Shown piece after piece: positions 3,047 to 64,000 of a stretch of 64,000 nt of DNA. A model generated the notes under the pieces. The model was not told the origin of the DNA. It did no database searches and saw only the letters and a program-made list of their open reading frames with translations. The stretch is taken from the NCBI GenBank assembly GCA_031213475.1, contig JARUPZ010000015.1, forward strand, positions 8,274,528 through 8,338,527, read 5' to 3'. Made by a program: the position numbers and the translations under genes. The stretch comes from Nereocystis luetkeana. Its lineage: Eukaryota; Sar; Phaeophyceae; Laminariales; Laminariaceae. Within the stretch, counting starts at the first letter, position 1. Every line of letters begins with the position of its first letter.

Positions 3047-3410
3047 TAAAATATACTATTAAAAAATGCGTAACTTCGTCATTTTTATGCAAATTTGATT
3101 ACGATTTTCGATTGGTCGTCGGTAACGGGGGAATAGATAAGCAAATTTCCTAATACTTATTATTTTGCGCAGGCACCCTAGTTAAGGCCGCTGTATAATT
3201 GTACGGGTTTTCGGATCGGCCACATATCCCGGTGTATACTGAGGGAAACAAAAGGAAAGAAGGAAGGGCAAATCAATGGTTGCTTGGGACATGAATAACA
3301 CCGTGTAAAAAAATTACGTCAAAATACGTATTTTTGAGCGGGGCATGGCCAATCAACCGCTCTGGCAGCGCCTTGGCTGGCCGAGCTCATATGAATCAGT
3401 GTCCACGTCG

Positions 3411-3462: not shown

Positions 3463-3866
3463 CTCGCCGTGGTGGTGCAGAAAGGTGTGCATCTGGCCGG
3501 TACGATGGAACATGTGGAAGGCGGTAGCGGTGAGGGGTCGTCTGGTGCCAACGCTAGGTGGGCCGCTCCCATCGACCCCGACACCGGAGAGGCGGACACA
3601 CGGTTCTGCTTCATCTACGCGGAGTTGTGGAGGCGTGTCGTCCACCCAACCATGGCTGACTTAGAGTTCCTGCAGGCGTGGACGGCGGTGGGGGGGGGGC
3701 GGGGGGCGCATGGGGAGGAGGAGGAGGAGGAGGAGCTCGGGGTGGCGGTGTTGTACCGGGAAAGAGTCGCGCCGGATGTCTACGACGCTGTGTTGGGCGC
3801 CGTGCTGACCGCGGTGAAGAGGCTCGACCTGCGGTACACGTACGACACTCCGGGGGGTGGGGGCAG
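3463..3866 (+). CDS. PRKDC: DNA-PKcs exon 1 of the window
   Basis: Starts after a CT-repeat polypyrimidine tract ending CCAAG. LAVVVQKGVHLAG matches human ISTVVHQGLIRICS, and DVYDAVLGAVLTAVKRLDL matches the helix before human IVEKLDLTLEIQ. Between them is an algal insertion with a Gly-rich stretch and a run of seven Glu (3716-3736). Ends AG|GTGCGC in phase 2. The AAG acceptor is not ideal; GTGCAG at 3475-3480 is an alternative. The next intron (3867-6775) holds two diverged MITEs, one MITE copy, an ATCTGAGAAAT tandem and otherwise nothing recognised. Confidence 0.85.
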
Positions 3867-6800
3867 GTGCGCATGATTACAAGGGATGCTTGAGACGGAA
3901 TAATGCATACGGAACGAGCGTACCCCGTACCACTCTGTCCTGAAAAGTAAGGAACGTTTCGATTAAGTATTTATTATATATGATGTCCTTATACATAGCG
4001 CCAAACACTGTTCATAGGGGGCCCTTTCGAGTTGCCTGAAGGTTCCGCCAGCACGGTACCGCACACGAGTTGACGACATTCCGGTACCGCAAATATCAAA
4101 TATCCTGCTTGGCGACTTTCCAAAAACAAATAGCGACAGCAATACGAACTCCCTGGTACTATCAGTAGTATTTTTTTGCAGGATGTTGGATTCTAGTTTT
4201 CGAGAGTTTTTTTTTTACGACATACTCGGGGACGGGGGGCGTTTTGCAATCGTGTAAAGTGGATGCCTACTGCGGGGGGACATGATAGTCAGGACCGAGT
4301 ATGTTTGGTGAAAGTACTGGAATGTATAGCTAGCTTTTGGTGTGTATGATGGGTTCTGGCTGCTACGATGGTTCGTCACTCATTCCACGGTGTTCGGGGT
4401 TTACCGTTTTTGGGCTCAACATTGTCTAACCGGTTGAGCTCCTCCAGTGAGCAACTTGTAGTATACCGGTCACTATGACACTTTTATCAGTACCTGTTAC
4501 TAGTATGCAATATGTGCGTCAAGGACTACTGTAGCGCAGACAAATACTGGTCGGGTTAAGCGCGAACACAACAATTTTTGAAGAGGTCGTGCTTCGGGTG
4601 AGATGTTGAGCAGCTCCTCATTTGAGGACGAGCTTACTACGGTAGAAAATAGCAAGGCAACCACCCTTGTGAGGCACCACCCCCCCCTCCTCTCCCCCTT
4701 ACCGTGGCGGCATTGCTCGTCTTTGCAGTTTTTTTTTTTCGGCTGGGTCTTCGTAAGCTTGTACTGTGGTCGGAGGTGTACTGCGACAGAGGCGTTACAT
4801 TTCATGAGGTTCCTGACGCGAGGAGGGCTATAACTTTACCCCAAAAAGCCGACGTTGAGAATATGTTGCACACCTCGGAATGATAGATAGAGCATGATCT
4901 GAACCACAGCTCATCTAGTTCCTCGTCTGCATACAAAGTATGTACAGATCCAACCCGGGGGACTTTGTGCAACTCTGTAGATCATGCCGATTATTTTGCG
5001 GGTCCCACCCGGCAGTATAAGCTGCTGTTAACCATGCCCGATTGGGAACAGGCCTCTCTGCGTTGAATATACCTGCCTGGTTGATCATCAACCATCGGCC
5101 CGAGATGTGGAACATTGTATGTCGAGAACACGAATAATATTATTTGTGTACCACTACAGTTGTAGTCACTTGTCCCATCAAGGGCTCTCATCGGTTGAGA
5201 AATATCTGAGAAATATCTGCGAAATATCTGAGAATTATCTGAGAAATACCTGTGCTCGATGGTGCAACCCCTGCCGTGGCACGGTTCGTCGGTATTGCCT
5301 TTCCGACTGTGGAAAACAGGTTTCGTATATATATGTATCTAGAGGTACCATACCAAGGCCAGCAGGTTTAGGTTTCTTCGCGGAATATTTACGTAGCCAT
5401 TGCCTAGAACACCTACTGCTGTATACGAGTACGAGTAGATGTCTCTCTTTAAAAACCCTCCCCATACCACCACTGCAATAAACGACCCACCAACGCCAGA
5501 TGCTAGGACGATAGTGGGGGTATGTGCCTACTTTTTTCTGGGGCTCTTCTTCGCCCGAGGTGCTTCTTCTCTGTACCTGGCCCAACCAAGAACGATTTTT
5601 GAGAAGAAAATGAGGGTGCTGTTTATCAAGTTATTATGTGTTGTATACCGGGCTTTGTATACTACTGTAGTATTAATAGTAAGTCACCCAAACACCGACT
5701 TTTAAGAAGAAATGAAAGTGCAACCCCATGACCCAGCTATTACCAGGGACCATTGTAAATAGGACCTACGGTACACACAAAAAAATTGTGTTCACCTATT
5801 TTTACGAGTAATAGTTGGTCCTATTTAACATGGTTCCCCGCAATAGGTATTCAGCGACTATTTATAAGAACATGTAACATGTCAAACGCTGCTGTAATGG
5901 GTGTTGCAACTTTATTGGCTAGTTTAGTTACCCTGGCAGCCATAATTCATGTTTCGGCCAAAAACGCCTACTACTGTACTCGTACCCGTATATCAGCACA
6001 CGCGTTCATTCGGGTTCTTGACCAAAGTAGGCTGCCTCGCAGAAAGCGTGCAGCTTGCTACAGGGATTCTAGTATTTTCTCAAGGTTTTTTTGCATGTAC
6101 CATGGCATGGCATATGGCCCTGTGGTTGAGCCAGGTTTCGTTTTCGTACGGTGTTGGAGCTGTGTCGTCTGCTTTTTTGCTTTGCGGCGCACGAAAAAGA
6201 AACGCCCGGCGGCGCTATAACGGTGGTAGCTTGGGGCACCGACAATTCGATGGGACCGTGAGTTCGCCGACTGCAAGTCGCCGCCTGGTTTCAGTTGGCT
6301 AGCTATTAAGGCATCAATACTTTTGTTGCGCGCGGTGGCTTCCACGTTTTATTTCCGACGGACGCGTTAGTTAGTGTGCCGGATTTGCGTTTCTTGCTTT
6401 AGACCGGTTGTAGACTTGAATTAGTCAGTTGGTTAGCTTGTTTTCACCCAACTATTACGGGTGGGCATATGTAGTAAACAGGACCAAACCATGGCGTGTA
6501 CACATAGGGAAATACACGGTTTTTGGGTCCATCATGGGCTCTGATTACCATGTATTACTATGCCCCCCCCCGGAATTGACATACACACGTCGCTACCCAC
6601 CATGAGTTCCAGCCAAGGCGTGCCTTACTCACGGCCCCACAGTTCGCGCAGGTGGCGTCAACTCCATCCGTGTTTCGACGGGTGCTTGTGCACACACGCA
6701 CCGATAACGTTTTGTTTTTTTCCCCCCGCCAAGCTTTTTTCGTTTTTGTGCTCCGATTTTCTCGTTGCGACACAGGCCAATCCCTCGGCACCCGACGGAC

Positions 6801-9800
6801 CAGAACATGTTTCTGAACCTGGTCTCCTTCTGCCAAGACCTCCTCCCCACGTGAGCACCGCCCAAAACGGGGCCTTACTGTAGTATGTACCCCGTCTGTA
6901 CCGCAAGGGAGCTCGTATGGCACTCGCGAAAATCGGCCAATCGATTTATTTGTTTGTCATCGATTAGTTCTGGCTCGCCCGCGCTCTCGAATTTGTTTTT
7001 TTTCATCGCCGAGCATGTCTGGCTTGCCCGTGCTGTTATGGTTGTGCATCAGGGTTGTCGTTTGTTTTTTGCAGTGATCGGCCTTGCGGACAGACCGAAG
7101 GATAATCTGTCGGGGCCTTCCCTTATAAGATGGGCTCGAGCCCGATATATTGGCTTGTGAATTCCAATACCTTCGCCTGCGAAATCTTTGAGGCCAACGG
7201 GCGGGTTCAATTCCTTCAGACGAAACGCTCGGAATTTGAGTCAGAGTTAGGTTTCTGTACATTTCTTTCATTCCCGTTAGTACCTCTTTGTGTCTTTGTT
7301 AGTATGGCCCGTTTTGCCTTTTTTGCGTTTTGCTATCTGCTTCTGTTTTTGTTTTGTTTTTTTTGCTTTGCTTCATCTTTTTTAGGTTTGTGTCTGCAAT
7401 TAATAGTCTCCTTTTTGCTTCCCTGGTGTCCGCAGCGGTGGAGTGCGTATGCTTGTTTTTTGTTTTTGCCTCTGTTTTACTTGAGGCATTTCTTCCACTC
7501 CAGAGTTATTGGAGCCTGTCCTGCGACCACGGACTGCATTGTATTGTGAGTTGATGTGAGAACAACAACAACAGTGCACCATTAACAGTACCAGGGTTAT
7601 ATATAACACATCTCAACGTGCCGCCTTGGTGGGAACCGTGCTCAAAGGCAAGAGTACGTCTCTGTAGCACACGCTGTTGTACGCCTTCGCATGCTTCGGG
7701 TTTGATGCTCTGGTGCGGTCGGCTCAGACGAATCTTGTTCAACAGCGCACTTCTCCCCGTTCCTCCCCCGCCTTGTCTCATGCTGAGGGCAGATCATATC
7801 TTAAGAATCGATAAAACCTTGGTAACTGTGTACAATGACGCGAACCACGAGCCAGTCGGATCCTAACGGTGGCCTTCGCTTCCGTAGCTCCGCACGCCTT
7901 TCCGCCGAAAGCTTCCGCAACGCACTGCTGTCTCTAACAGCGTCGTCTTGCACACATCACCTTGGTATGTAAAATATAGCACGGTAGCCATAACATCCGT
8001 TTGCCACGCTATGCATTTCGGATATCCATCTTTGCCTCTTTCACTCATCGATAAAGTCGATGTTTTTGCACGTTTCACGGCTTGCACGCTAACGGTAATT
8101 CGACACTTGCGCGGTAGTGGTAGGCGAATATTTTTCTCGGTAGCAGTAACCCACGGGGAATCACGATATTTACCAAGAATACATGCCGTGATTTTACCGT
8201 GAAAACTGTTTTCGCCGCGGCAATATAAACCGGGTGCTACAGCAGTAGTATATAATTCCGAGGACACCCCTTGACTACAATCTGCAACCCACGACATTTC
8301 TCGGGGCCGTACTACAGGTGTCGCCCGGACCTCCTCCTCGAGTGGGTGCCCCTTCTCTGCCCCGAACTCGTGAAACGTTCTCTGGAACGTCCCTTGGTCA
8401 GCGGGTTCTACCGCCTGGTGACGCTGGTTTTCCGCGAGACCGCTCGCGCGGGGTACTTCGAGCCCCCTCCCCTCTCCTCATCATGCGAATCCGCTGGCAA
8501 CTCCAACAGCGACTCAATTTTGGAGGTAAGTTGATGCGTGCTACCTGGTGTATAATACCTGGTGTACGTTTGCACGGTAGGAGTGCACGTATTTTTTTCC
8601 CTCGGGCTCCTCAATTGAGGAGCTCTCTCTTAAGACTCTCGCCCAACAAATCTAAGCTTTGAGAAAAAAAAAGTGCAACCCACGAAAAGAGTACACGAAA
8701 CAAAAACGAAATCGACACCTCACTTTTTTTTCTTGAGTCCCAGACTAGGGGGAGTGTACTGAAATAGAGTAAAACAAAACTGAAAAAATACACGGTTAAA
8801 TAAAATCTCATGTATAAGTCGGACTAAAGTCCCAACCCACTACGAGTACTCGTATCAATTCCGACGTGGTGGCGATTGCTGCTCCTTTTTTTTCCGTGTG
8901 ACCCTGTACAACCATGTGAACAATCCCATAGTCTACTGTAGTACACACTCGAGCACTATTACGGTGAGCATATCATACTGTAGAAATCGCAACCATATAC
9001 CAGGTAAGGCTACAGGGGGTACCCCGAGTTAACCCTTTTAGAACCGCAGTCCCGTTTTGGGCACAAACTACTTGAAGATTTAGTGGTTTGTCCCCCAAAC
9101 CGGGCTGCGGTTCTATAAAGGCTGATATCACCCCAAGTCAAGAGCATTCTGGAGTTAAGAACGGTCTAAACGGGTTGTCCCACCTATGAAATACTATTAA
9201 GGGGGGCAATAGTAAATAGGACCTACGGTACACACAAAAACCTATAAATTTACCTATTTTTACTAACAATATTTGGTCCTATTTACTATGGTCCCCCGTC
9301 ATAAAAGCTAACTGGTACAGGTATGTATTCCCCACTAGAGGCAACAGCTGTATGCAGTCAAGGTTGCGTGTTTCGGCTTATCACGGGATGCTTTTTTGTC
9401 GGGGTACCCACTTACGAGTTAAATATAGGAACTTGTATGTTTTTAGGGTCCAGTGTTGTTTCTGACTCACTCTCGCCCCCCCGTAAAGACACTGTGAAGA
9501 AAACACAACTGGTTATTTCAGCGATAAGGCATGTTTAACTGGGTAGTCCCCTCAGTTTAAGGCGGGGTGGGCTTTGCTTCCCCGTCCAGTCCAGGGCGGC
9601 GTCTTGAATTGCTTCGCACGCTGAATAACGCACAACTCGCCGTGAAAAATACCTTGAATGATACCAGGTACCTGCTAGTGAAACTTACCAGGCGGGGATA
9701 TCGGCTGTCGGTGGATGCTCTGTTCTGCGGTCGCGGTGTGTTCTAGTGCGAGCGCGCGAATGTACTATTACGGGGGACCATAGTTAATAGGACCAAATAT

Positions 9801-12800
9801 TGTTAGTAAAAATGGTTAAATGTATAGGTTATTATGTATACCATAGGTCCTATTAACTATGGCCCCCCGTAATACAGTAGTAGCTACCTTGTCCCCTTAA
9901 GCGATCAGTCAATCAGATCGACCTATCGATCAACCCACGTATCTATCGATCAGTTTGTGCATCAACTATTACGGGGGAACATAGTTAATAGGACCTATGG
10001 TATACATAAAAACCTATATATTTAACCATTTTTACTAACAATATTTGGTCCTATTAACTATGGCCCCCCGTAATAATTCAATCAACCTACCCACCAAAAG
10101 CGATCAACCAATTGAGTGTCGCACATGCCTTTTTCAAGACTATTCGCGCCTTTTGCTGGGATTCCTCCCCTTGATGCACGCGCGGAGGTAATCGCCCCTG
10201 TCTTCGTACTGCAGGGTCCCCTCTGCTGGGTTCCCTAGGGCGCCCCCCCGCAGCTCCGTATCGCCGCCCACGCCCTTCTAGGCCCGAACCCACCTGGTGC
10301 CGAACACACGGCGAGGTGCCAACACCAATCGTACGACACGCTTTCGGACACCCCTCGACGAGGTCTTTCTAACGCAACCCTTTTCGTCGCTGATATGCGA
10401 CTTGCTGTGGAGATATCGAGCTCGAAAAGTTGGTCCGGGTGGGGGGGGGGGAGGAGGCGTTTGCTCGCGTTGTCGGTACTTCGTACAAACCGTGTCCCTC
10501 GCGTGCGTGCGACTCCATAACAACCGGCAGGTGGCGATGTCCCCCCCCACGCCTGGCTCGGTTGCTGATGCTATCGGGCTGGGTGGGGGTGGTGAGCTAA
10601 GCGGTGGTGGCCGTGGCGATGGAAGCGGAAGCGGCAACGATGGTGGAGGCAAGGGTTTGGTATCGGGGTGTGGCGTTTCGGCTGAGGACTTCGGGGAGAC
10701 AGACGAAGAGGATGGCGGAAGGTTGATTTGCCGCAGGGTGCTGTGCAGGTGAGTTAAAGCGCCCCGGCCGTCCACCATCGGACTTGTGACTCAACGAACT
10801 TGCATGGTCAGGCTGATGATGGATAGGCGAAGGGCATTCACGAGGAGAGCTTTGACGTTGTGGACGTTACCGCCGCGTCACCTCGTGTAGACGTGGTTAC
10901 CATGTGCATGAAGGGATATGAGGTTTTAGTTTTCGAAAACTTCGTTGTGGTCGGAGTCGCGCGGGAAATAATATGTATGAGGGGGAGAAACGTTTTCCGG
11001 CCACTCCATGTGCTCGGAGACGCGCAGGGAAAAACGCTTACGACAGGGTTTTTATCTATGTAGACAGGTTCGGGCGTTGCATGATATAAGCACACGATAA
11101 ACCGCCATGAACGAGATCCCACGCGTGGGTTGGAAAAATCAGTTAACCCACGAAAAATCAAATAACCTGATACTCGGAAGTAACAACATACCAGGTTAGG
11201 CTTTCACTTTTCGGGGAAACGCTCAGAAATTTCGCATTAAAAATCGTGCTCTGCGGCGAGATCTACAGTACACTAAATTCTACTGTACCACTCCGGGCGG
11301 AAATATAAGCACCGTTTAGACATCAACATGAAGACCAAGCGCTACTATTGTTCATGCCTAGGGTGTTATACAATAGCCGATGCTGTTCAAGGTTGTTCAA
11401 GAATGGATGTCACATTGAGGATATAAGGATTTGCTCAGACTACTGCTGTAGGGGTTTTATTCTTACTGGCGGGCCCACACTGCTGTGTCGACACCTGGCC
11501 TCTCTGACTTCGCCACGCAGGGTGATGCTCATATTTCCTGGAATGCTACTTCTCGTACTCAATCGTATACGCCACCGCTTCTGCTGCGTATGGGCACCTT
11601 ATCACAATATCAAGAGACGTGGACTTTTCTTGCAAATAATCCTGTACAACTCTGGCCGTAAATACGATAATCACTTGGTCTTCATATTATTGTCTAAAAG
11701 TCTCTTACATTTCCGCCCAGAGTGGTACGTACATTAGTGTTGGATATCGAACGAAAATCAAATTCGATATCGACGATACCGATGAACAAAAAAAAAGTGC
11801 CGTGACCGACTCTGTATCAACGTTTGATAGTAGACCCGAATCTTTCGTTCAGTGTCAGCATGAGAAACACGGGGGATGCCGACAGGGGATGGAAGGCGAA
11901 ACACGTTCGATATTTCGGTTCGATATTTTGGTATATCGAAACTTTCGATACGGTATCCAACGTTTACGACTTTTCGGAAGTTCGATTTTTTGTTATATAT
12001 CGAAACTCTTAATACGATATCCAACATATACTATATATCGAAAGTTTGATATTTTCGATATATCGAAACTTTCGATACGCTATCCAACATATGCGATCTA
12101 TCGGATTGTCGATTTATCGACATATCGAAAATTTCGATACAACATCAAACACTAATGCACATGAGATGTGCCCCCTACACGGCAGATACTTGGAGTGGAT
12201 GACCGTGCGTATCGGCGGATTCCGAGACGAGCTTCTAGCCGCCTGCACGGAGGCGCTCCTAAATGCACCGCTGGGATTACTGGCCGGGGATCTCGGCCCC
12301 CTCGTCCCCGCCGTGAAGGTCGCCCTCACGTCCGGAGCCTCGCACCTGCCCACTGCGGTTGTGGTGGTTGACGCACTGGAGAGGTGGTGGGAGGAGGCTC
12401 CAGCGTTGCTCACACCGCACTTGGGGGAGGTAAGACTGCTGGGGAGGAGCTCGTAGCTCTAATTTTACTGACGAGGATGTCGACGTTCTATTTATAAGAA
12501 TCACAATTGATCTGGGTACGTGTTGTGATGCATTGTTCAGGTGAGACTTGCAACACTGTGCAGGTGCGAGGCGTCTAGAGGTAGCAGTAGGTGTGGTTAT
12601 ACCCAAAGAGAAAACCTGGATATGCTACTCGCAAGTACCCACAGGTAAATCTGGAGAGGCAGGAGCTACTATTCCTCTTCTTCTTCTGTTTCTTCTTCTT
12701 TTTCTTCTTCTTCTTCTTACTATTTTTGTTCTTCGCCCTTGTTTTATCTGTCTCCCTCTTAGGCTTAACTCTGCAACACATATATACAGCGAGTTCTGTC

Positions 12801-15800
12801 CTTGTACTACGGTTCGTGCCTAGCATTTTTATCGCGAGAAAAATTCGCCCCCCTTTCTTCTTTCGTCGACTCGCACTGAATTTCACTGCGTACGCAGAAA
12901 ATATACCACTCTGAAACCTATCAGGTACATAATACTGTAGTTACCGTAGTATCGCTATCACTGGGGGCATATTAACCAGGCCCGATCATGAACACTAAAA
13001 CCTCGTATATATTACACTATTCTCAAGAAGCATATTTGGTCCTGACTATTCTGTTCTCCCGTATTCTTAATATTGCGGGGGGCCATAGTAAATGGGACCA
13101 AATCTTGTTCGTAAAAACAGAGAAATGTGTAGGTTTTTGTGTGTACCGTAGGTCCTATTTACTATGGCTTCCGGTGATAGCATCACAATAAGCTATGGCG
13201 CATATGAGACTTGAGGAAATGTTCGATCTCGCAGCTTTGTTTTTGTTTTTTTCGGATACGCTGTCGCGCGGTAAAAGTAGTACAAGTGGAGGGCGTCAAG
13301 GGCGAAAGTCGGCTGTATATCATACCCAAGGAGAGATACGCGAAACGCGTCGTGGTACGAAAGCTCCTGCTTCGTGTTGGCGCAGCTCGCGTCAGTCATC
13401 TTGTCTAACAATTATCTTTCGCACGCGAATCCCCTTCTGCCCAGATTCTGCCAAACTTGGACCGTCACCTTTCAGCGGAAGCGTCGGCAGGCGGGGACGG
13501 TGTGTCCTCTGGAAAGACAAGGCGCTCCAGAGGCGGGAAGGCGGGATCGTCTCTGGGTTCGGGGGGGCTAGGTGGAAGCACGGACGACCACGGAGAGGAG
13601 GCGAGGAGGAAGGATCTTCGCCGGAGGATAGTCCGGTTTCTCGGAAGGCTGGGAGGAATGTGAGAGCTTAAGAGTTAGCACTCTGTCTGAAAACGAAAGG
13701 ATCGTTAGGGTACTTACATGAGTAATCTCGACCCAACACAGGGATGCACGAAGAGCAACCCCGAAGGGGAAGCAAGCCTGCTACAAGGTACACATCGGGA
13801 AAGTCTATGACACTTGCATCCTCGGCGGCCTAGCGCAGCACGAGAAAGTAGGTCGCGGTTGCGTAGGAAAACAGACCATCTCGCCCGCCCGCCCGCCCAT
13901 CGCTGTGTGCGAGATACGTCGCCAACGACATCGGTTTTTCGTAATTATTTGCATTGTGTAATTCAACGAGGTGCCGCGTTGACTGTCATCCGAATCAACG
14001 CGGGGATAGTAGCCCTGGGTGATCTCGGGCTGATCGCAGCAGAGACGCCTCACCGATCCTGAACGATAGGAAGTATACGAATTAAAGCGGCGACGAGTGT
14101 TACAGCTTGATTATGCCACTCCACAGATGTTGGAGTCCGTTTTGTGACGACGGACTAGGCTATGGTGATGAGTTAATGTGACAACAGCAACAAATGTCAG
14201 TGCGTGGTTCCGTGCTTCGATTCTTCCGTGCACCAGTCCATGAATATGAGTGGGGTATGGGTAGCTTTTCGTTTGTTTGCACAACAACAACAACAACAAC
14301 AGCAACAACAACAGCAACAACAACGGCAAGTCTCCGTGCGTGCTTCCGTGCACTGGTCTTCCGTGCCTCGGTCTGTGTGTATGCGTGGGGTATGGGTACG
14401 TGGTTGCTTGCTTGCTTGTTGGTTCGTTTGTTTGTTGGTTTGTTTGTTTGTTTGTTTGTTTGTTTGCTCGTTTGCTCGTAACAGTATCAACAACGTAACA
14501 ACACAAAAAACACCCTCCTTCGTGATCGCAATTTTTCTTGTCGCTGCTTCCACGCCATGCCTCAAAGGCACTGTCTGTCGGACTTCCCCAGTACAAGAAA
14601 GCACGATACTCGGGTGGCATCCTTAGAGAGTTTTCTTTGTCGTTCTCCTTTTCCCCCCCGTTCTTTCGCTGTTGTGCCGCGTCCGAAGAGATCACCTTAT
14701 ACGGGTGGGCATATGTAATATTCAGAACCAAATGGGGCGTGTAAACATAGCCTTTCAAGTCCATCGTGGATTATTATTATCCCCCCCCCCCCCCCGGTGA
14801 TAGTGCCCGCTCACGCCTCCTGCCGCACTTTCGGCCTCCCTCGCTCGCCTCAGCACACATAGTGTTGTATGCTTATATAGCTTTCCTAAAAGCAAGGGTA
14901 GATTACACCTGTTCATTTTTTCCCTTGGAGTTTTTGTTCTGTTCTCTGGGTTGTGTCGCGTCCAAAATGAATCACCTATAACAGTGGCGGCCGACGCCTC
15001 TTATGCACTGTCGGCCTCCCCCGCTCGCCTCAGCGCAAGAAGTGAATGCTTGCGTCATCGAGCATTCTGAACGTAACGGTAAACCACCTCTTGTTCCTTT
15101 CAATTTTCTCATTCCGTTCTCTGGGTTTTGCCGCGTCCAAAAGGAACCACCTAGTCGCGGCCGACGCCTCGCACGCACTGTCGGACTCCCTCGCGTGGGA
15201 CACCAAGCCACGCATCGTTTTGAATGTACCCTACAAAGAGCAGCAGGAACCGCTGCAGATCTGTCTGGACGGCACCCTGCAGAGACTGGTGGAGCTAGCC
15301 CGGCGCGAGGGGACGAGACAGACCAAGACCCTTGCCGCGGAATGCCTCCACGCCCTCGTGGTGTACATGGTATGTAGCAGTGCGTTTTATTTTTCTTGGT
15401 ATTGGGTCTCCGGTTAATATTGCGACTCGTACAATATATGTATCTGGTGGTATGCTGTTCGTTTTCCCCCCGCTGTTGGTATGCAGCCCCCTCGGTTTTT
15501 GCCGTAACTCGAACGTACAACCTATATCTCTGGGACAAACGTACCCCAGATTTCGGAGTGTTTCCCTCCTGTCTGAGGTGTACGAGCTGCTTCAGTCACC
15601 GCGGGGTATTATTTTGTGCTGTCTTTTTTCCCGGGTTATTCTTCCACTCCAGAGAAAGTTGGGCCTGCTCTGTGACCACGGACTCGATTGCGGCTATGTG
15701 TCGATGTGAGGAGAAGAAAAACAACTACAGCGACAACATAAGACAGTGTACACAGACAGTACAGGGACAAACTTACTTGAAACGAGCTGACAAGGCTGTC

Positions 15801-48800: not shown

Positions 48801-51800
48801 ATACAGAGCCACTCGGCAACAATGATCTGCATCGTGCAGATCATGCAGGACGGGGATCTGTATGTCCTGAAAATGTCCGCATCATAGAATAGGTACCTGA
48901 TCTGTCCTATACCTGGTGTGACAGGTGTGTGGAATATCGTCCGCGAGGCGCGTCAAACACGGATCGAAATACGTAGATTTTTCTCAGAGAAGCGCGCATT
49001 GGGCTGACAAGTGGACTGTGCTATATCCTCCACGTTGAGTGTGTTAACGCGGCCCTGTCCCTCTCTCGGTGTGTGCACATATTCTCACAGATACAGTACT
49101 TTAGCTGTAACAAGATGCATGAACAAAGCTCCTGATCCCCGGCAGAACGAAATCTGACACCAGCCCCCTGCCAACCCCAAACTGTTCAATGTTGTTTTTG
49201 GCCGTTGCCAATCGGACCCGGCTGCTTCCCTTTCGTTGGGCGTCCGAGTGAGTTTGCATCGTTGTTCCCAAACCGAGCTCAGACGTAATCTCGATCCAAA
49301 CCTGGGATGCACGAAGAGCGACCCCGCAGGGGGAGACAAGCCTGCTGGAAAGTACGCAAGGAGCATTTTTTGTGTTAGTTTTTCCCTAGTAACTATTCTC
49401 TGCGACGAGGTGCCGGGTTGATTGCCATCGAACCAACGCGGCGGCAGTTGCCCTCTGTGAGAGCCTCCGGTTAATTGCAACAGAGGGGCCTTATTAATCC
49501 CAAAATATATACCTGGTACACATTATAACGACGACGGAATGTTGTTGCAGGAATTCAGTGGGTCATGCCAGAGGAAAATATGTAGACCCTGGTCGCCATT
49601 CACGTGGAAATGATACTTTTGCTGCAAGTGATACCCCGCTCCCTTCAGCACGGCGGCGTCCGCCCGCCCACCTACAATGTAGCGAGCACAAACAAATGCG
49701 CAAGTCGGACAGATCATCTACAGATAGATCATGTACGGATATATCATCTAGATCCCATCCCTTGGAACGTGTTGTGCATAAACTGTGTAGTTGAGATTCA
49801 ACCCATGGAATACGATCTAGATTATGCAGGATCTGCATAGTATAGTACAAAGCCAACCCGGGAAGAATGTGTTAGGCCATGCAGATTGTGCGGCTCCCAC
49901 CCGGCGATATGAGCTGGATCACATAGATCAGGAATATATCTATCTGTGCCCTTAACGATCTAAATCATGAAACGGGAATCATTTATCTGTCTTGGGGTCT
50001 CTAAATAATGTCCCCTACTATTACGGGGGAACATAGTTAACAGGACCTATGGTATACATAAAAACCTATATGTTTAACCATTTTTACTAACAATATTTGG
50101 TCCTGTTAACTATGCCCCCCCGTAATACTACCTCGGTAGAAGTGATCCCACACTACCTCCCAAGTAGTGTGTCCCCGAAACGCGCGTCAAGTTCTGAAAA
50201 ATCGAAGGGGCAACGCGTTACCTTGTACGAGCTGGTTCCAGCAGGCAACGAGTTGGGATAAAAACCGATGTAATAGATGTCGAACCGAGTGGCGCGGGCG
50301 TACAAAACAAATGCCATGGTACAATGTTCTCGGTTCCGAGCAATCTGCAACAATGTTCTTGGGGTGTATGACTTGGAATTGGTGTGGGGCCCTTTTTTTC
50401 AGTGGTGCAAGGATAAGATAAATACCTGGCACTGGGGGTCTGCTAGGCCTGACGCACCCCTCTCACAAAGCGTAGCCCCCCCCCCCCCCCCCTCCCTGTG
50501 TTTCGCCTGCGGGCCTTTAGTCGATGTTTTGTTTTTAGTTGTTCGACGCTGGACATATCTCGCGAGTAAGTAATCGATGTGAAGGTTGGTTTGGCCTGCG
50601 AGCCGTATACATATATACATCGCGAGTGAGGGGCGGTACCTTGTGCTGTTTCGCTGAAGCGAGTACCCCCATCGTTATCACGTCTTGGTCAACATACCGC
50701 GATTGATGTGTGCATTTCCAAAGGAGCCCTCCATCTGATAGTCTAGCCGATACAAGCGAGCGGTGTTGGCCGTTGGTACGGGATGTTCTCGGAATGCAGT
50801 TCGGCATCCTGAGTTGGAGGAGGGTCATGTCATACGTTTATATAGCTCGGAAAAAAGTGATCATGGTCATGTCTGAATCACAGGAGGGTTTCTCTGGTTC
50901 GCATATGCTGTGTACCATACCCTGGTGTACCCTGGTATATACTTCAGATATTTCCGGGTTGGCAGTACGGGTTTTGCGGTATCAAGGAATCCTGTATGCG
51001 CGCTAAGTGGCGGGAAAACTATGCTATCCTCCCCTCCTTTGATACATCGCCATGATGTCGCTAACGGCCCTCCGGCTCTTTGCTTGTACTGGTATCAAAT
51101 AAGCTTGTATGCTCACGAAGAGACGGGAAAGCTATACGTATTATCCCCTTGCCTCCTTGATACGTTGCCATGCTTTGGTTAACAGCCTCCCGGGACTTCG
51201 CTTGTTCTGGGATTAATTAAGCCCGTATGCGCGCGCAGTGAATGGCGAGCTATAACATCGTCCCCTTCTTTGCTGCTGGTATCTACGCTAACGGCCCTGC
51301 CCTCCAGAACGTGCCAATTTTCGCCTCGAGCGTGCGTGCGGCGGATGAGCTGGCGCGGGCACTCCCCGATGTCTGCCTTTCCTACACTCAGAAGGTACGG
51401 CACCCAAATATGTATTTGCTGTACCTTTCGTTCGGATTTGCTAATATAGTACATACCATTGTTTTCGTTGTTCATAGTTGGTAACGTGTAGTCGTACCTG
51501 GGATGGTATACCAGGTAATCTCTTTTATTTTCTTCGCTCACCTCGTGTTTTATCGAGGTTTTGACATTCTGCTGCTTGCTGCACGTGTGGCCGCGCTCGA
51601 TAGCGTTATCAAGCCAAGTATTACCAAGGATGTGGTACCAACCTTGTTCCAATGTTTGGATGCATCCGATTGGATGGCGATTCTGCCGGATATGCACAGT
51701 ACCCCAGTGTTGATACGTACCAGGTATTTCGTTTGTATCACCTTGTTCTTCATACCATTAGGGTAATATAAGTTTTTCAAGCAAATCCAAAGGAAAAACA

Positions 51801-54800
51801 AACATCCGAGAGAAAAACGAGCGTGAGCGGCCTTCGACGCCAAATCGACACACACGAGTTCATGTCGGGACAATCCACAAATGAGGAATTGCACCGACGA
51901 GCGAAAACAAGTGCCGTCCCGCAGACCTACACGCGCGTCTATACGTTTATGGCCGTACGCAACACTGCATGTAGCGCGAGATCGATATGTAGCATTGGCA
52001 AGTTTCGCAAGTCACGCGAAACAGCAGGCGCTCTCGTTGAATGAAGAAAAAAAAAACGCGACGTATGTAGCAGCTCGCAAGCACTACGGTGTATTAACCC
52101 TTTTAGAACTGCAGTCCCATTTTGGGAACAAAGCGCTCAAATTCCAAATAGTTTGTCCCCGAAACGGGACTGCAGTCCTAAAAGGGGTGACCCCATTATA
52201 CCCCTTTAAGTACTGTATTGAGAAACCTAGAGCTGACTTTAATTCCAAGTAAAATGTCCTCCACAACGGAAGTGCAATCCTAAAGAAGTGCAAAAACAAT
52301 GTCCGACACTTGTTTTTTTTCCCGAAACCCGTCGTCGAGCGTGATGTATGCATGCTAGAATGTGTGTGTGTGTTGTGCCTGTCGTATCCAGTACGATTAC
52401 ACGGCCATTGCATTGCCTACTCTGCTCACTGCATAACCATGAAGTATCTCTGTGTCGTAGTTTTTGTGACCACAGAGCTTGTATCTCTCTATGGTTGAGA
52501 AAGCCGGCACGGGCACTGGTTGCGTGCTGGATGTCGACGGGTAGAAAGAACGGTTTGATGTGAAACCGCACACATACATGTGCCGATTCCCGTTCTGCGG
52601 CCGTTTTATATTCTTCGCGGTTTGGGTGGTATACCACCCTGTTTCAGAACAGAAGGTAGTTTTGGTACGTCTAACACATGCCGCGTGATGTCCGAAGCTG
52701 CCTTATGTTCTGGGACAGACTGGTAGACCTCGCTCAAATTCAACGAACGGTATATGTATTTATATTTATTTATTTTTTCATGCAAAATGGGCGAAACGTC
52801 AGTCATCGGAGTGTTTTATGTGACGTCACCCCCACCTCACGTTCGTGTGCCTCCCGTGCTCCGAAGGAGAGCCTTGTGCGTGCGGCATAAATACGTGCGA
52901 ATATTCATATTTTGTTTTTGTCGGTTTTCGCTTGCGTCGCATACCCCCGCCTATGTGACAGAACCGGCCATGGACCAGTTCGACGGTTCCACATTGTCGG
53001 ACTGGTCATGACCTAGATCGATTAGATCACTTAGATCCTATCATCTGCCGTCATGAAATGTTGTGCCAGATTTGTGTAGTACCGATTCGAACCCAGGTAA
53101 CGTATCCAACTGTAGATCATGCAGGTTATGCGAGCGGGTCCCGCTCGGGAAACACGGGGTAGATCATGCGGATCAGGAGTAGATGACCTATCTGCCCTGA
53201 AAGGTCTACAGCAGTAACTCGTGAAGTGGGAATGATCTGTACGTGATCTGTAGGTGATCTGCAGATGATCTGTAGATGATCTGTCTGAGTTGTGGACTAA
53301 TGTGCATGTTTCACTTCGATTTCAATCGTTTTTTTTTGTAAATGGACCCCAGCAATGCCACCCGCTATCGGGGAGCTATCATAGCTTAATAGCTCGTAAG
53401 CCTGTTGAGCGTGATGCCCGACATGTTTACCACGAACGTTTGGCGACGTTGTCTTGGCGTGCGTCACATGTCCGCTCCTGCCTGGCGTGGAATAGAACAC
53501 GTTCGAGACCGGCACAGAGCTACTGGCCATGGCCCTAGCGCACGTGGCTTGGCTCAAAGAGGGCGGGCTACCTCCCGAAGACGAGCTCTGCGCGCAGTGC
53601 GGGGTGAGTTGCACGAAAAAAAAGTTTAGTTGCGCCATGTTCTGCGTGCTCAGTCCCGACTTTTCACATACTCTTCCACAACCTTCATATATGCAGATGA
53701 TCTTTTGTTGTGGCTAGTCATTTCCCTCCCCCCCCCGCGCTCTTCGAGGTTTACGACTCGCTTCGTTTCTTTGCTGAGGGCGACACAGCGACAGAAACAA
53801 TGGGTATTCGAAGATAGCGACCTAAACAACGGTTGTTTGAAGACAGCAACCAGAGCAATGGTTGGTAACGTTTGGTGCTGTCAACCATCTACGAGCAGCG
53901 TGTTGCCGCCCTGCCGTATTCATCCTTTTTTTTTGGAACCCGGACGCCACTCTGTATCACCCCCCAGTTACCGTTGCCAAACGAATTCGTCTCTTTTTTT
54001 ATCGATTTTTTTCACAAGTTTCGGGTCGACTTTTGCACGAAACAAATGAGTATATATGTCGATATATACTCGTATAATATATACCTGGTATATGTATACC
54101 CTGGTATGTATTTTGTCTGACGATACGGTAGTGTAGGGCGTAGGACACACCCTGCCTCATGTACTCGTAGGAATACAAAGAGGTTGAGCCTGGCCGCCAT
54201 GCCTTGAGTAGTGTCACGTACTCGTTTTCTTACTTTCTTGGGTGTACGTGGCATGGATGTGAATAATATTTTTGAGCATGGATACACCCATAATAATAAG
54301 AACTTGCGACTGGACCGAAATAAGACATGCCTTCAGTAGTGTCGCGCACTATATACCGTACGGTGTATATAAGTTGTTTGCGATCGCACTCCGTTTTATT
54401 ATTTATTTTTAGAGTGTAAACTTTCGGTGAATATTCTTCCGGAACTATTGCGGTTTGCACATGATATAGGATGGTATACCGCGGCCCGTTGTAACCGTTT
54501 GGCACGCGTATGGGTATGTACTGCGATGCTGCACGTAACATTCTGTACCAGCTACTTGTTTTTCTCCCGCGGGCACGTTTGTTTTACCTGTTCATGTGGC
54601 CACGGGCTAGGCTTCAGGGGAACGTTTGTTTCACCATCATCATGCTGTATCATACCCTATTTTGTCCGCAATCTTCCTTCCCCCGACCGCCTCTGCTCCG
54701 TCTTCGCCAGGCTGAAAACGGTGATTGGTTTGTCCGGAGGGTGAGCGATCGGCTCGTGCGTATGAGCAGAGACGGGGGGGGGCGCAGCCGCTTTCTTCAT

Positions 54801-57800
54801 GCTGTGGCGACCATTACCAGCGTCTACCCCGCCGTGCTAACAAGGAAACTACTGCTGAGGTAATCAATCGCCGGTCCCGTTCGCGCGTTGCTGCGGCGAA
54901 GGCTACGGGTAGAGGGCACACATGGGCCAGATGACACCGATCCCTTCCAGGGCAGTTATGTTCCTGATCTGTAGGGTGTACAGGTAGTCTCGATCCAAAA
55001 CCGGGGATGCAAGAAGAGGATCGCCGGAGAGGAGAAAGCCTGCCTCATTAATCCCAAACTATTTACCAGGTATATACCAAGTACGAACGAAAGCGACGAG
55101 GATATGTTACTGCAGTAGCTCAGGTTGCCGAGTAGAGGCCGTGTAGTCTGTATGATCTACATAGCACGAAATTCCTGGGTTGGATCGGTACTGCAAATAT
55201 CCTGCCTAGAAAGTCGTGTAGGCAGGTTAGGGTCTACAGTAGATGGTCTACAGTAGATCGTGATCTATCTGTAGATTATCTATTTGTAGATCGTGATCTG
55301 CCCGATGTGTAGATGATTTGCGCAACTGACTTTTGGCTCAATGTTTTGCGACTTGTGTACATACTTCGTATCATGATAGTTCATTCCCTGAGCGTTGATG
55401 GTGTTCCATTATGTGCAATCCTGCTCCCGTACGCTACGGGATGCACAAGGTATGCGGGAACGGGGGGGGTGGAGGGGGGGGGGGCGTATGCAAACGCCAT
55501 TCTCGTCTTCGGGCCCGAGGTTAGTAACCCTCACGCGTGCATCATCTGCCTATAGTATATAGTTTGCTCGTTTTGGTCCCGGACCATGGATCGGGCTTCC
55601 CCGGGCCTAGGCTGCATGGGGTTCAGCTGTCGTTAGCGATCATTGTAATCGGCTAATCTGCGTTACGGGCAGGATTCTGGTTTGAAGGGGTCGTATTGGA
55701 GACTCTTTAGATTTTGCAACGTATCCCGATGCGTCTCAGTTCGCAGTTTGCATCTCGGTTGGGTAGTTTAGCGGCCAACTGGTTGATGTACTGGTACGTA
55801 GAGAAGCAGGAAACGAACGCCGTGTCGAAAGATAGCTTTTACAGTGACCTCCGGTCTTATTTCCAAACAGCTCGTGCCGCTCTGTACCAGCGGGGAGCCA
55901 AGAGCCGGGAGGAGACCACTGGGGTGTGCTTTGTTGTTGGCGCCTGTACAGTTGCGGATTAGTCATGGCTTGAACAAGGCTAAGCTGACCCATCGTTCCA
56001 CAGGCGCTCTCCCAGCGTCTGCGCCTCCGCTTGTCTCCCTGAACGCTCTGGTACCATGCCCTGGCCTTCTGTCATCCGCCAACCCTTCTGTAGCCTGAAG
56101 GTCGGGCGGAACTATGTCATGAGGTCGTCCGTGGGTGTCCATGTTGATGGGATTCGACGTGCACCGAAATAATGCATGGTGTTGTAATCGGCTCGTGATG
56201 AAGGAGCTCCTTGCATCGCTCTTGGCTCTCATCGTTAAAAAGTTGACGCACGTTCCCCTGTTGTCTCTGTTCGCGGCTACCTCGTTTTGGCGCGTACCGG
56301 GAACACTTCTCACCTCGCCCCCCCTGTCTCTGCACGCGCCTGCCTCGTCTTGGCGCGTACCGGGGACACTTGTCGCCTCGTCCCCTCTCGTCTCTGTCCG
56401 CGATTCGTGTGTGGTGCTTGAACGTTGCCAAGTTCCATTGAGGCTATGCAGTTTGCAGAAGCCAACTGTCGAGGACGTTTCCTAGCCACCCTTGCCGACG
56501 CCTTCCCACGGTGAGATGACAGACAGTGGCGCCGTATCATTGCGGCTCGTGGGTAATAAGTTTTTATCACAAAATAGAAAAGGTTTTCGCTGGATACTTC
56601 CCCGAAGTGCGTAGTGGTCATGTCGATAGGGATTGTTGTGATACGCCGGTACGGGGTGTAATTATGATGTACTCACGTGATGCCGTGGTCGTATATATTA
56701 CGTTAATAAGGGGTGTTGTAGATGTTATTGCAGGGAAGCATGCAGTAGTAATCAGGACCAAACATGCCTAGTAAACATGCTGGAATATATAGTTGTTTTG
56801 TGTATGTGATGGGTCCTGAATACTATGGACCCCCGGAATAATTCATTTCACGCAAGAGGGACGCAATATGGAGGGGGGGGTGTACTCAATGTCATGCATG
56901 GCCGTAGTCGTATGATCATAGACCCTCGCATCCCTACAATGCCGGGACGGAGCACGTCGGGTGTTCACCGACCAATACAGGGGGGGGGTGGAACTCGTTC
57001 ATCTCGCAAAAGGGGGACGCAATATGGTTGGGTTCGGGTTCGGTGGAGAGCGAGGGGGTACCCATTTTGTTGCTTGCCTTAGTCGTTTGACCACCGACCA
57101 CGCATCGCTTTCGAGACGGGGCGGGGGGGGGGGCATACTCACTCGTTTCTTGCCTTTGTCATTTGACCAGTGACCACGCATCCCTTTCGAGACGAAACAC
57201 CGTTCCTACTCCCAAGAGAGACACCTCCAGGAGGGAGGGGGTCGTTATTGATTATTTTCGCCAAAGAGGGACGCAATGTTGTTGCATAGCATCACTCGGT
57301 CTCCGTAGATGTTTCCCGGACGGCAGTAACACCTCGAAATCGAGTACGCCCAATCCTCGTATATAAACATACCTGTAACGCTATAGACAGGATTCCTCGG
57401 TTTTACAGGAAAGCTTTTTTAGAAGGCTTGGAATTCACGGTGTACCACGCCAATTTTTTGTTTGTTACTGTAACAGCAAAATGACTTTCAACAGAGTGGG
57501 CCTGCTACGATTTTGGACCCGCTTCGCGTTTATCAAAGTTGAAATCATACCTTTTTTGCGGTTTTCTGACTGGGTGCCAAGAATTTCAAATACCCTCTCT
57601 CGAGAATTTTGGAACCAGACGTATGGCGGCTGGCCGTCAGCCACTGCCACAGTGAGAGCAGCAAAATATTTTCCTTACCTCTGATGAATCGCGATTCATT
57701 CGTGAATGGTTCCCTTCGGCCAAGCAAAGTAATGGCCACGCCATGCCTGGCTTCTGCCTCTACACCAGCTCTACGTGGTGTGGCCATCATCGCTGCCGAA

Positions 57801-60800
57801 CGTTAGTTTTATTGTTGTTTTTTTTCTTCTCGACGCTGCTCCTCACACTGATCAGCCTTTTGTCTGTGCTGCCGACCGTGTGGCAGTGGCCTGGTGCCCG
57901 CTCTGGAAGTGCAGAGCCTGTTCGTGAGGCTGCAACCGTTCTTGCCTTCGTTGCTGCTGGAGCCGGAGGTGGAGTTCGTCCGTGGGTCTAGGGTGAGATA
58001 ATGCCCACCGCTTTTTTCTGGGTTGTACACATACAACCCTCAAAACGCTCGTCTTCATACAAGTATTTTTTTGGGGGTTACGCTTTTTCTGCCACACCCC
58101 TGTGTGGCTGAAACTCACCAGTACGTAGGGTTTTGCGGACAGATACTCGGAATATTCAGTGGAATTTATTCTGCGGGTAGTAATTTTGGACCCAAAACCG
58201 GGGACGCAAGAACGGCATCCCCGAAATGGGAGAAATCCTGCTGGAAGCACACAAGAAGCAACTCAATGTCACGCGCTTCGTGGGCCACCTCTATACGGGC
58301 AGCTCGGGAAAAGTGGGTAGCGGTCAGGGAAAACGGACCATCCCGCCCGGCGATCGTTTTTGTGCGAGATACGTCGACAACGACACACCAGTTTTCTTGA
58401 CACACACCAAGGTAGAGGTGAGGTGCGCCATGTTTTTGTTGTGGGGCTCCTCGTTTGAGGAGCTCTGGGCTATGAGTGACACGTTTGTACTGCCCGCAAG
58501 TAAGTCACCCCCCAAAAAAAACGGATTTTGAGAGACAGAATGAAAGTGCAACCACGCCGATGAAACGACAAAGAAAATCCCATGTCCTAGTTGTAAAAAA
58601 ACATACACACAACATGCCAGTATCGCGAAAAGAAAGGAGGACGAAATTTTGACTATTTTGGGGTTGAGGACCCGCGCTTTTCAGAACGTATTTTGACCGA
58701 AAAGTACTGCCTCGTTTGCAACACGCGCCACTTGTGCTTGTTTTTCCCGGAGAAATTATTTCGGCGACGAGGTGCGGCGTTGATTGCCATCGAATCAAGG
58801 CGCGGTAGTAGCGCTGGGTGAGCACCTCCGACTGATCGCAGCAGAGAGGCAATCCCAAAGTATAAAGGGAAGTGCGAGTTAAAAGCAACGACGAAATGTT
58901 ACTGCAACAAATCACTGGTCGCGTACTACATATATAGAATATCCTGAAGCCATGATGCTCCACTGTTTTTCTGAATCGGTGGCAACCTACTCAAAGTACT
59001 GCAAGTTTCACAGGGGTGTATGTTATATGTAGGCGGTTGTGACACCAGTATCACTGGCAAGGGGGAACGGAGTTTGGAGACCCGTCGCCTACCGGGGAAG
59101 AAAACACTTCACGTCTCGGACAGATAGATTGGATAGATCATGATCTATCTCTCTTCACCACAGATCATCTGGATACGAGGACGGATCCAACCCAGGAAAT
59201 ATGGTGCTAGATCATGTGGATAATACGGCTCCCACCCGGCAACACTAAGCCACATAGATCATAAAAGGTCAGGAATAGATCATCAGTATCTGCCTTGAAT
59301 AATCTAGAGCCATGAACTGGGAACGATCTGTACATGACCTGCCCAAGGTATGAAATGGAACCACTTGTTTTCTAAACAGAGACTTTCAGTAGATCACGGC
59401 GCACCAGGTACTTAATTTCGGGGGATCATATTAAATAGGACCTACGGTACACACAAAAACCTGTATATTTTGCTATTTCTACTAACAATATTTGGTCCTA
59501 TTTACTATGGCCCCCCGTAATAGTGCATTCTACGGGGAAGGGACTAAGTGTTGCGTATCATACCCCATCTTGGAGGGAAACGGCTAACGCTCGGAATCGA
59601 GCAGCCGCTGTACAGCTGCGCATGGGAGGACCGACGCCCTCTATTGCCCCTCCACGCCGCCCCGTGCTGTGCAGGAAAGCGGACAAGCTTCGGAGTGGAT
59701 ACCGACGGCCCAGCTGTCGGCTCTTCGACTGTTGCGCGCGTTGGCCCCAACGATGACGTCCAAGCAGCTCGGCTCGGTGCTTGGGGAGGACGATGCGCAT
59801 TCCTTGGTGAGGGAACGACCAAGTTATGGCGGCAGTTGTGGTCCCCCCTGTAATACCGGCAGAGCAATGCCGGTTACCCGCTATAGTGCCTGTGAAATCA
59901 CTTTGCGCATGTGGGATTGACTAAGTGTGGTAGTGTGCGAGGTATATAGTGCCGGCTGCCGCTCTGCAGCAATAGTGCCGGTATTGTTCGCTGGCGCATA
60001 CCGGCACCATCGAGGGACCATCACTGCTGCTGTATATGCTAACCGGCGTGGTACATTCTTGTGGCGGTTTTCAAAGGGCAAGGTTTCCCACGTCGGGACA
60101 GATCATGCTCTCGATCGTCTATGCAGTATACGAATTTTGGTATTGAATCTGCCGCTATGAAGTGTCGACGCAGGATATGTATGTATCGTACAGATCCAAC
60201 CCTTGAAAACACGTGCTAGACCATGCAGATAGATCACACCGCCCCCGCTCCGGCAGCATGAACTGAACAGAATAGTGCAATCATGAATATACCCGCCTTG
60301 AAATGTGTAGATTGTTTAGTGGCGGTCGGCTATCTATCTGTCCGATGCATGTGAATACCTACCATGGGGATTCGGCTGGAGCCAAAATGCTGACGAGGGA
60401 GGGAAAATCTGGGTCCGCCGCCCCTGTACATAGTACATGGGGTGTTTCAAGTCGTCCTTTGTGCCGTCACAGGTGAATCCCGCTCGCAAGGGCTGAGATT
60501 TCCCAGCCCGCCTAGGGCTCGATATACTCTCTCTCTCCATGTGGCCATTTCTCCAGTTAGTCGCGAACTATACAATCCCGGTCAGCGGCCGGGAGGTTGG
60601 TTGCTCGCCTTCAAACACGACGACCAGTTCATCTCTCCACTTTCACAGACAGTGCAGTTTTTTTTCTTTTTTAATAGGAGCCTTGAACCACAACCCAATA
60701 CTTGTATTGCGTACCAGGTACTCTTTCCCGGCGAGAGGTTGCCTCATGGCGCTGCTGGCGTTCTTTCTTAGATTCCCTTTTGCTTTTCCCATCTAATATC

Positions 60801-63424: not shown

Positions 63425-64000
63425 GCGTACAGGCATGCACACATAGCACATACAAGCGTGCATGCACATTCAGCACATCAAAACGGGCATGCATGTTCAT
63501 GACATACAAACGGGCTTACACATGCAGCAAACACAAACCTATCTTCAAACAATCAACACATTCGAGCCAACATGTAAACAATCAACACATAAAAACGGGC
63601 ATGCACATACAGCACATGAACACGGTCATGCACGTTCAAAACATACAAACGAGCACACACATGCAGCAGATACAAACGGACATGCAAACAATCAACATGT
63701 TGAAACGGACATGCGGACAATCAACACGTGGTGAAACGGACATGCGGGCAATCAACACATGCAAACGGACATGCACTTACAGCACATACAAACGGTCATG
63801 CACTTTCGAAAACATACTAACGGCCATAAACACAGAGCAGATACATACGGGTATGCAAACAATCAACACATAGAAACGGAAACGCAAACAATCAACACAG
63901 AGAAACGGGCATGCAAACAACCAACACATACAAATGGGTATGCACACAATCAACGCATACCAACGAACATGCAAACAATCAACGCATACAAACGGACATG
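63425..64000 (+). repeat. ~30-bp minisatellite to the window end
   Basis: Two alternating unit types, AAACGGGCATGCACATACAG with CACATAC, and AAACGGACATGCAAACAATC with AACACAT. It starts 22 bp after the exon 39 donor and runs off the window. The period is close to a multiple of three, so more than one frame stays open and gives false His/Thr/Gln-rich ORFs. Confidence 0.92.

Follow-up and report, generated by a model that had tools for sequence, protein, structure and literature searches.

This locus raises the question of whether the 64,000-nucleotide stretch analysed here (the window, C15:8274528-8338527, + strand) belongs to an intact gene for DNA-PKcs, to the remains of one, or to another gene with a similar layout. 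All positions are given in window coordinates, which continue beyond both window ends (another 20 kb on the 5' side and 100 kb on the 3' side were included), and the genome searched comprised 465 Mb in 1,987 contigs. We consider it about 95% probable, judging from the sequence, that the window covers the central part of one complete DNA-PKcs ortholog gene of approximately 130 kb, with about 97 exons and some 5.5 thousand residues. The predicted gene (~130.2 kb, C15:8257821-8388048, + strand, or -16706 to 113521 in window coordinates) extends past the window by ~17 kb on the 5' side and ~50 kb on the 3' side, and the final model contains 97 exons encoding 5,519 aa, with a median exon of 138 bp and a median intron of 1,028 bp. 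The model starts with an ATG at -16706 and stops with a TGA at 113519-113521. Thirteen predicted exons lie 5' of the window, and a start codon at 3505, downstream of these, was rejected as wrong. Within the window we predicted 42 exons on the + strand, from 3463 (first start) to 63403 (last end), together encoding 2,806 aa (Table 1). The initial annotation had proposed 39 exons between exactly these two ends; its end points were recovered, and its count equals ours when about three doubtful exons (16428-16505, 27065-27103 and 32290-32372) are set aside, leaving 39.

The gene model combined codon-position Markov chains with donor and acceptor weight matrices in a self-retraining procedure, seeded with nine exons chosen by hand and two kinase exons located through their motifs. 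Its ATG and stop were imposed, both having been picked by similarity to the ends of human DNA-PKcs. A GT donor and an AG acceptor were present at all 96 predicted introns, which is no test of the model since the script demanded AG and permitted only GT or GC. The coding score was positive in 96 of the 97 exons, including exons without recognisable homology, with the model trained on the same exons. Two sets of exons from an early model were dropped: those at 28.9-29.7 kb, which fall in a 630-bp-spaced repeat, and the terminal exons, which were wrong. These false exons vanished once doubtful exons were excluded from training and the stop was imposed at the FATC end. The splice junctions are predicted, and we infer that the exons are spliced into one transcript and expressed.

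To identify the protein, five pieces of an 84-exon model (4,910 aa, with 13 upstream exons left out) were searched against Pfam. Matches were obtained to DNA-PKcs_N (E 4.4e-35) and CC5 (E 2e-11 and 3e-07), each covering part of the profile, to DNAPKcs_CC1-2 (E 2.3e-54, profile positions 4-333 of 809, extending into the first ~55 aa of exon 27 at 24630..25442), to the kinase (E 3.7e-49) and to FATC (E 6.5e-7). The CC3 or NUC194 domain (PF08163), which PMC8549938 describes as a DNA-PKcs signature, scored 20.4 bits (E 2.7e-4), under its cut-off of 28.9, and the residues flanking it align to human. A weak match to Tra1_ring (22.1 bits) also fell under its cut-off of 27. One of the five pieces had no Pfam match of any kind, and the FAT model had none at E 0.1 in the five pieces; the FAT stretch was located solely by alignment to the human FAT region, where some exons had p<0.05 against shuffles. 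A six-frame search of the genome with NUC194 returned no match, and absence is not shown by this search, as its controls gave none either.

Comparison with PDB sequences separated DNA-PKcs clearly from its relatives. Among the best 60 of 117 sequences, the kinase piece scored 287.6 bits to DNA-PKcs, 138.4 to ATR and mTOR, 128 to SMG1, 127.5 to a Tel1 and 116 to human ATM. The piece spanning N-HEAT and forehead (908 aa) matched DNA-PKcs with 262 bits, the sole molecule matched at E 0.01. The CC5 piece matched DNA-PKcs with 37.5 bits, exon 55 (63235..63403) holding only a 1.6-bit stretch, and the CC2-CC4 piece had no DNA-PKcs match at E 10 with phmmer. The predicted kinase exons (102.5-109.0 kb) and FATC exon(s) (113.4-113.5 kb) both lie 3' of the window and are open with intact catalytic motifs. 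The kinase retains FLVKGGEDLR together with the catalytic loop GIGDRHLENF, GIDFG and LPVPELIPFRLT, the latter three aligned to their human counterparts, and the protein terminates in VECLIDLATDPDVLGRQWIGLATWV-stop, aligned to the human FATC end. The motif YRxGxxPD (YRPD motif), given as invariant in DNA-PKcs in PMC8549938, occurs once, as YRDGELPD aligned to human YRHGDLPD. By sequence, the gene is identified as DNA-PKcs and not another PIKK, in agreement with the initial annotation; the best matches to ATM, ATR or mTOR that it had named as grounds for abandoning this identity did not occur in the PDB comparison of the kinase piece. Of the exons it had suggested seeking 3' of the window, those for kinase and FATC were predicted there, with FAT traced by alignment only. 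Of the DNA-PKcs profiles it had suggested, CC domains (CC1-2 and CC5) matched, as did DNA-PKcs_N, with NUC194 remaining below its cut-off.

The order of the matches was also that of the human protein. A tblastn search with whole human DNA-PKcs placed 23 of 30 matches on a single + strand diagonal from 6.8 to 113.5 kb, the seven off the diagonal all having E >= 1.2; no diagonal match was observed between 20.9 and 70.4 kb. The global alignment spans human residues 1-4128 with 1158 identities in 3964 aligned positions (~29%), part of which is the optimism of global alignment. The full-length gene that had been proposed is complete at the sequence level and larger than the window, and the proposed ~2,000 human-equivalent residues in order were confirmed, as the 42 window exons align in order to human residues ~479-2568. 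Since the CC2-CC4 piece lacked a phmmer match to DNA-PKcs, a shuffle-controlled alignment was used for the poorly conserved stretch at 24.6-62.4 kb. Against human residues 1202-2570 it gave a local alignment score of 313, compared with a shuffle mean of 122 (SD 18, z 10.6; maximum of 100 shuffles 190.5) and 115.5 for the reversed human sequence. In a 6 by 6 block comparison of the same stretch, two of the six diagonal blocks carried signal (z 6.7 and 5.8), with off-diagonal blocks at or below 3.1. Tested singly, 19 of the 42 window exons had p<0.05 against shuffles (~2 expected by chance), as had 47 of 97 in the whole gene (~5 expected), while 23 window exons were without individual homology support at this threshold.

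Table 1. Predicted exons of the candidate DNA-PKcs gene within the window, numbered as in the 97-exon model. Human residues are approximate and were taken from the alignment itself; p refers to the homology of each exon compared with shuffles.
Exon	Position	Strand	Residues (aa)	Human residues	Support	p	Remark
14	3463..3866	+	596-729	~479-602	gene model	0.010	
15	6776..6850	+	730-754	~603-635	PDB match, tblastn	0.003	
16	8318..8525	+	755-824	~636-684	PDB match, tblastn	0.003	
17	10531..10748	+	825-896	~684-708	gene model	0.389	mostly Gly-rich insertion
18	12186..12429	+	897-978	~709-791	Pfam, PDB match	0.003	
19	13445..13659	+	979-1049	~792-864	Pfam, PDB match	0.003	
20	15144..15369	+	1050-1125	~865-940	PDB match, tblastn	0.003	forehead start
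21	16428..16505	+			gene model	0.837	doubtful; in 12-bp tandem repeat, without human counterpart
22	16992..17165	+	1152-1209	~942-997	Pfam, PDB match, tblastn	0.003	
23	17548..17700	+	1210-1260	~998-1049	Pfam, PDB match, tblastn	0.003	
24	19066..19211	+	1261-1308	~1050-1097	Pfam, PDB match, tblastn	0.003	
25	20809..21037	+	1309-1385	~1098-1175	Pfam, PDB match	0.003	
26	22043..22253	+	1386-1455	~1176-1226	Pfam, PDB match	0.003	
27	24630..25442	+	1456-1726	~1227-1384	strong coding score	0.465	with insertions
28	25951..26916	+	1727-2048	~1385-1573	gene model	0.033	
29	27065..27103	+			gene model	0.017	doubtful; 39 bp only
30	27676..27851	+	2062-2120		gene model	0.243	
31	30380..30475	+	2121-2152		gene model	0.296	
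32	31945..32062	+	2153-2191		gene model	0.056	
33	32290..32372	+			gene model	0.781	doubtful; overlaps dispersed repeat 32325-32502 found at unlinked loci
34	33569..33740	+	2220-2276	~1670-1702	gene model	0.010	
35	35108..35306	+	2277-2342	~1702-1751	gene model	0.007	
36	35940..36011	+	2343-2366	~1752-1775	gene model	0.023	
37	37107..37239	+	2367-2411		gene model	0.126	
38	38206..38427	+	2412-2485		gene model	0.512	
39	39227..39379	+	2486-2536		gene model	0.066	
40	40535..41271	+	2537-2781		CC3 match below cut-off	0.056	NUC194/CC3 region with S/TQ-rich loop
41	42253..42441	+	2782-2844	~2122-2174	CC3 below cut-off, gene model	0.003	
42	43782..43850	+	2845-2867	~2175-2195	CC3 below cut-off, gene model	0.003	
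43	44972..45089	+	2868-2907		gene model	0.850	
44	46571..46700	+	2908-2950		gene model	0.179	
45	47727..47835	+	2951-2986		gene model	0.173	
46	48322..48397	+	2987-3012		gene model	0.080	
47	51308..51394	+	3013-3041		gene model	0.767	
48	53496..53603	+	3042-3077		gene model	0.053	
49	54711..54859	+	3078-3126		gene model	0.106	
50	57887..57992	+	3127-3162		gene model	0.894	
51	59675..59806	+	3163-3206		gene model	0.542	
52	60994..61075	+	3207-3233		gene model	0.841	
53	61512..61679	+	3234-3289	~2459-2494	gene model	0.003	
54	62242..62407	+	3290-3344		gene model	0.322	
55	63235..63403	+	3345-3401	~2520-2568	Pfam CC5 reaches in	0.150	CC5

The introns are laden with repeats. Dispersed repeats that also occur in 180 kb of unlinked loci occupied 38 intervals between 2924 and 61209, covering 8,024 of the 64,000 bases, and several intervals of ~120 bp had 15-17 matches each, e.g. 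9186-9304, 9758-9880, 9952-10078, 23592-23707, 56870-56991 and 59413-59530. These repeats largely avoid exons, with one of the 42 window exons overlapped substantially and a second by 2 bp. Also observed were the intronic direct repeat at 28025-29773 that misled the first gene model (630-bp spacing, 300 nt, 96% identical), a satellite-like array at 44445-44897 whose unit contains the palindrome CACACGTGTG, and, in the intron that follows exon 55, a minisatellite of ~29-bp units at 63432-64000, extending to the window end.

Such a setting could also hold a decaying or interrupted DNA-PKcs pseudogene, of which pieces align with no full protein encoded. The locus is intron-rich and full of dispersed repeats, half of its exons lack individual homology support, and the model was forced to stay open, so that a false intron could mask a frameshift. 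We nevertheless judge this very unlikely: open frames and intact catalytic motifs are seen in the kinase and FATC exons, the coding score is positive in nearly every exon (exons on which the model was trained), and the repeats keep largely to the introns. The stretch at 24.6-62.4 kb, where neither a phmmer match of its own nor a diagonal tblastn match was found, invites the suggestion that two adjacent genes, one for an N-terminal HEAT protein and another for a kinase, were falsely joined. This same stretch aligns to the matching human stretch (z 10.6), with ordered matches to that one human protein on either side, and we regard a false junction as having almost no probability. Equally improbable to us is that the gene encodes another PIKK (ATM, ATR, mTOR or SMG1) or an unrelated HEAT-repeat protein. 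HEAT, FAT, kinase and FATC are common to all PIKKs, the kinase piece also reaches 138 bits to ATR and mTOR, and the weak Tra1_ring match points in the same direction, but DNA-PKcs is ahead by ~150 bits in the kinase, the N-terminal 908-aa piece matches it alone, the models specific to it match, the protein carries the YRPD motif, and ATM has its own gene on C11. A single complete DNA-PKcs gene remains our preferred reading.

In the predicted protein the domain order is as in human: N-HEAT, forehead, an M-HEAT cradle with a putative NUC194, an ABCDE-like loop, a basic stretch, YRPD, a putative FAT region, kinase and FATC. The basic stretch, which precedes the YRPD motif, resembles the human DNA-end-binding helix. 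Two loops were rich in S/TQ: the ABCDE-like loop ahead of the basic stretch and YRPD carries nine S/TQ in 136 aa (shuffle mean 1.5; none of 5,000 shuffles reached nine), and a PQR-like loop at aa 2616-2701 (exon 40535-41271) carries five in 86 aa (mean 1.2, p 0.0006), both p-values being optimistic since the loop ends were chosen after the sites had been seen. With no choice of loop ends, the best 120-aa window of the protein contained 8 S/TQ, compared with at most 5 in 300 whole-protein shuffles. Within the ABCDE-like loop, S/TQ were observed opposite human T2620, T2638 (RATQ in both proteins) and T2647, while T2609 falls in an alignment gap and S2612 faces S-Y. The PQR-like loop occupies the position that the PQR cluster has in human, just ahead of a conserved acidic stretch, and its likeness to human is limited to this position and its S/TQ richness. 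In the kinase domain, the human site T3950 is not conserved (SSELP vs human ATQFLP). Lees-Miller et al. are said to have reported in 2020 that T2609, T2638 and T2647 are conserved in most eukaryotes. We tentatively raise the possibility that a lineage far from animals has both autophosphorylation switches, ABCDE and PQR, in the form of S/TQ-rich loops at the corresponding positions. If this were true, the ABCDE part would extend what has reportedly been published already, and the PQR part would be new.

Other components of the pathway were sought in the same genome. The search listed 25 PI3/PI4-kinase exon matches, three of them in the DNA-PKcs gene, and six of ten other PI3/PI4-kinase places had tblastn matches to the kinase domain. 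One of these (C11:7127621, L020) is a separate ATM gene, sharing the PIKK kinase and FATC layout with the gene described here and differing in its closest PDB sequence (ATM 204 bits, DNA-PKcs 68). By motif, two other places are presumably TOR-like, one ATR-like and one VPS34-like; the two TOR-like kinase genes are separate (L014, C21:2982000-2991999; L015, C11:12261000-12270999). The Ku core search yielded five matches. C24 had a single match (E 6.2e-10), which reads through two stops, C33 had three, the best of them at E 0.0018, and C30 had a weak one. Ku_PK_bind (PF08785) matched once, at C24:1512154-1512291 (profile positions 46-94 of 120, E 3.9e-7), 48 kb from the Ku core match and on the same strand; one of 14 control genomes also matched PF08785, below the cut-off. 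We infer that the two C24 matches belong to one gene, which by sequence is probably Ku80, and the C33 gene, seemingly ending in a SAP-like exon, is probably Ku70. If the VWA-like, Ku core and Ku_PK_bind exons form one gene, the presumed Ku80 gene would be 57 kb long or longer (C24:1454726 to at least 1512291). An acidic DDLL-type tail was not observed in the 80 kb of Ku loci read, the Ku80 end falling beyond that stretch. At the presumed Ku70 locus (C33:5429299) we observed a peptide frame akin to that of the 28025-29773 repeat. The genome search for DNA ligase IV (PF11411) gave six matches with a best E of 0.22, of which three repeat the same place.

A working for the predicted protein can be proposed from human DNA-PK. 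There, as described in PMC8549938, the kinase is brought in by Ku sitting at a break, and the DNA end is held in the HEAT cradle against the basic helix. The two loops are phosphorylated, largely in trans, which frees the end. By analogy, Ku70/Ku80 would recruit the kinase to a double-strand break, where the DNA end would be gripped by the HEAT cradle and held to the basic helix, with activation of the kinase. The kinase could then phosphorylate the S/TQ sites of its own disordered loops in trans, and this phosphorylation would release the ends and allow end joining to proceed. On the human model, the protein would be an active kinase that depends on Ku for its recruitment and takes part in end joining.

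Human DNA-PKcs (PRKDC; PDB 5w1r and others) shares with the predicted protein the domain order over its whole length, the kinase and FATC motifs, YRPD with the basic stretch before it, and an S/TQ-rich loop at the ABCDE place. It differs in length (4,128 residues vs ~5,519 here, with Gly- and Ser-rich insertions), in sequence (~29% identity), in the T3950 place, which is without S/TQ here, and in the loops, both of which contain more S/TQ here. With the non-animal DNA-PKcs of PMC8549938, compared by the description given there, the gene shares YRxGxxPD and membership of a distribution that is patchy outside animals. That paper places DNA-PKcs in mosses, ferns, conifers, green algae, oomycetes, Dictyostelium and some fungi, and describes it as absent from flowering plants and Dikarya (PMC8549938). 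The statement of the initial annotation that DNA-PKcs is absent from land plants is therefore contradicted by its presence in mosses, ferns and conifers. The consulted portions of PMC6635534 and PMC8516963 name no stramenopile DNA-PKcs, and our search of the open-access literature found no publication on DNA-PKcs in brown algae.

Given this wide spread and the absence from flowering plants and Dikarya, an ancient and repeatedly lost DNA-PKcs is already the published view, and the present gene adds a member to a kinase already known as widespread in eukaryotes. It also provides an example of a gene that would be broken up by frame-based annotation, with ~97 short exons over 130 kb and repeat-laden introns. 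What the locus offers is a complete DNA-PKcs gene, testable domain by domain, probably from an alga or protist, in a genome that also contains ATM and probably both Ku genes, in support of an ancient and repeatedly lost kinase. The S/TQ-rich loops offer a handle on the age of the autophosphorylation switches. If both switches are indeed present and the host is a stramenopile alga, T3950 would be a later addition or a local loss, and two-loop control of end access would date to the common ancestor with animals.
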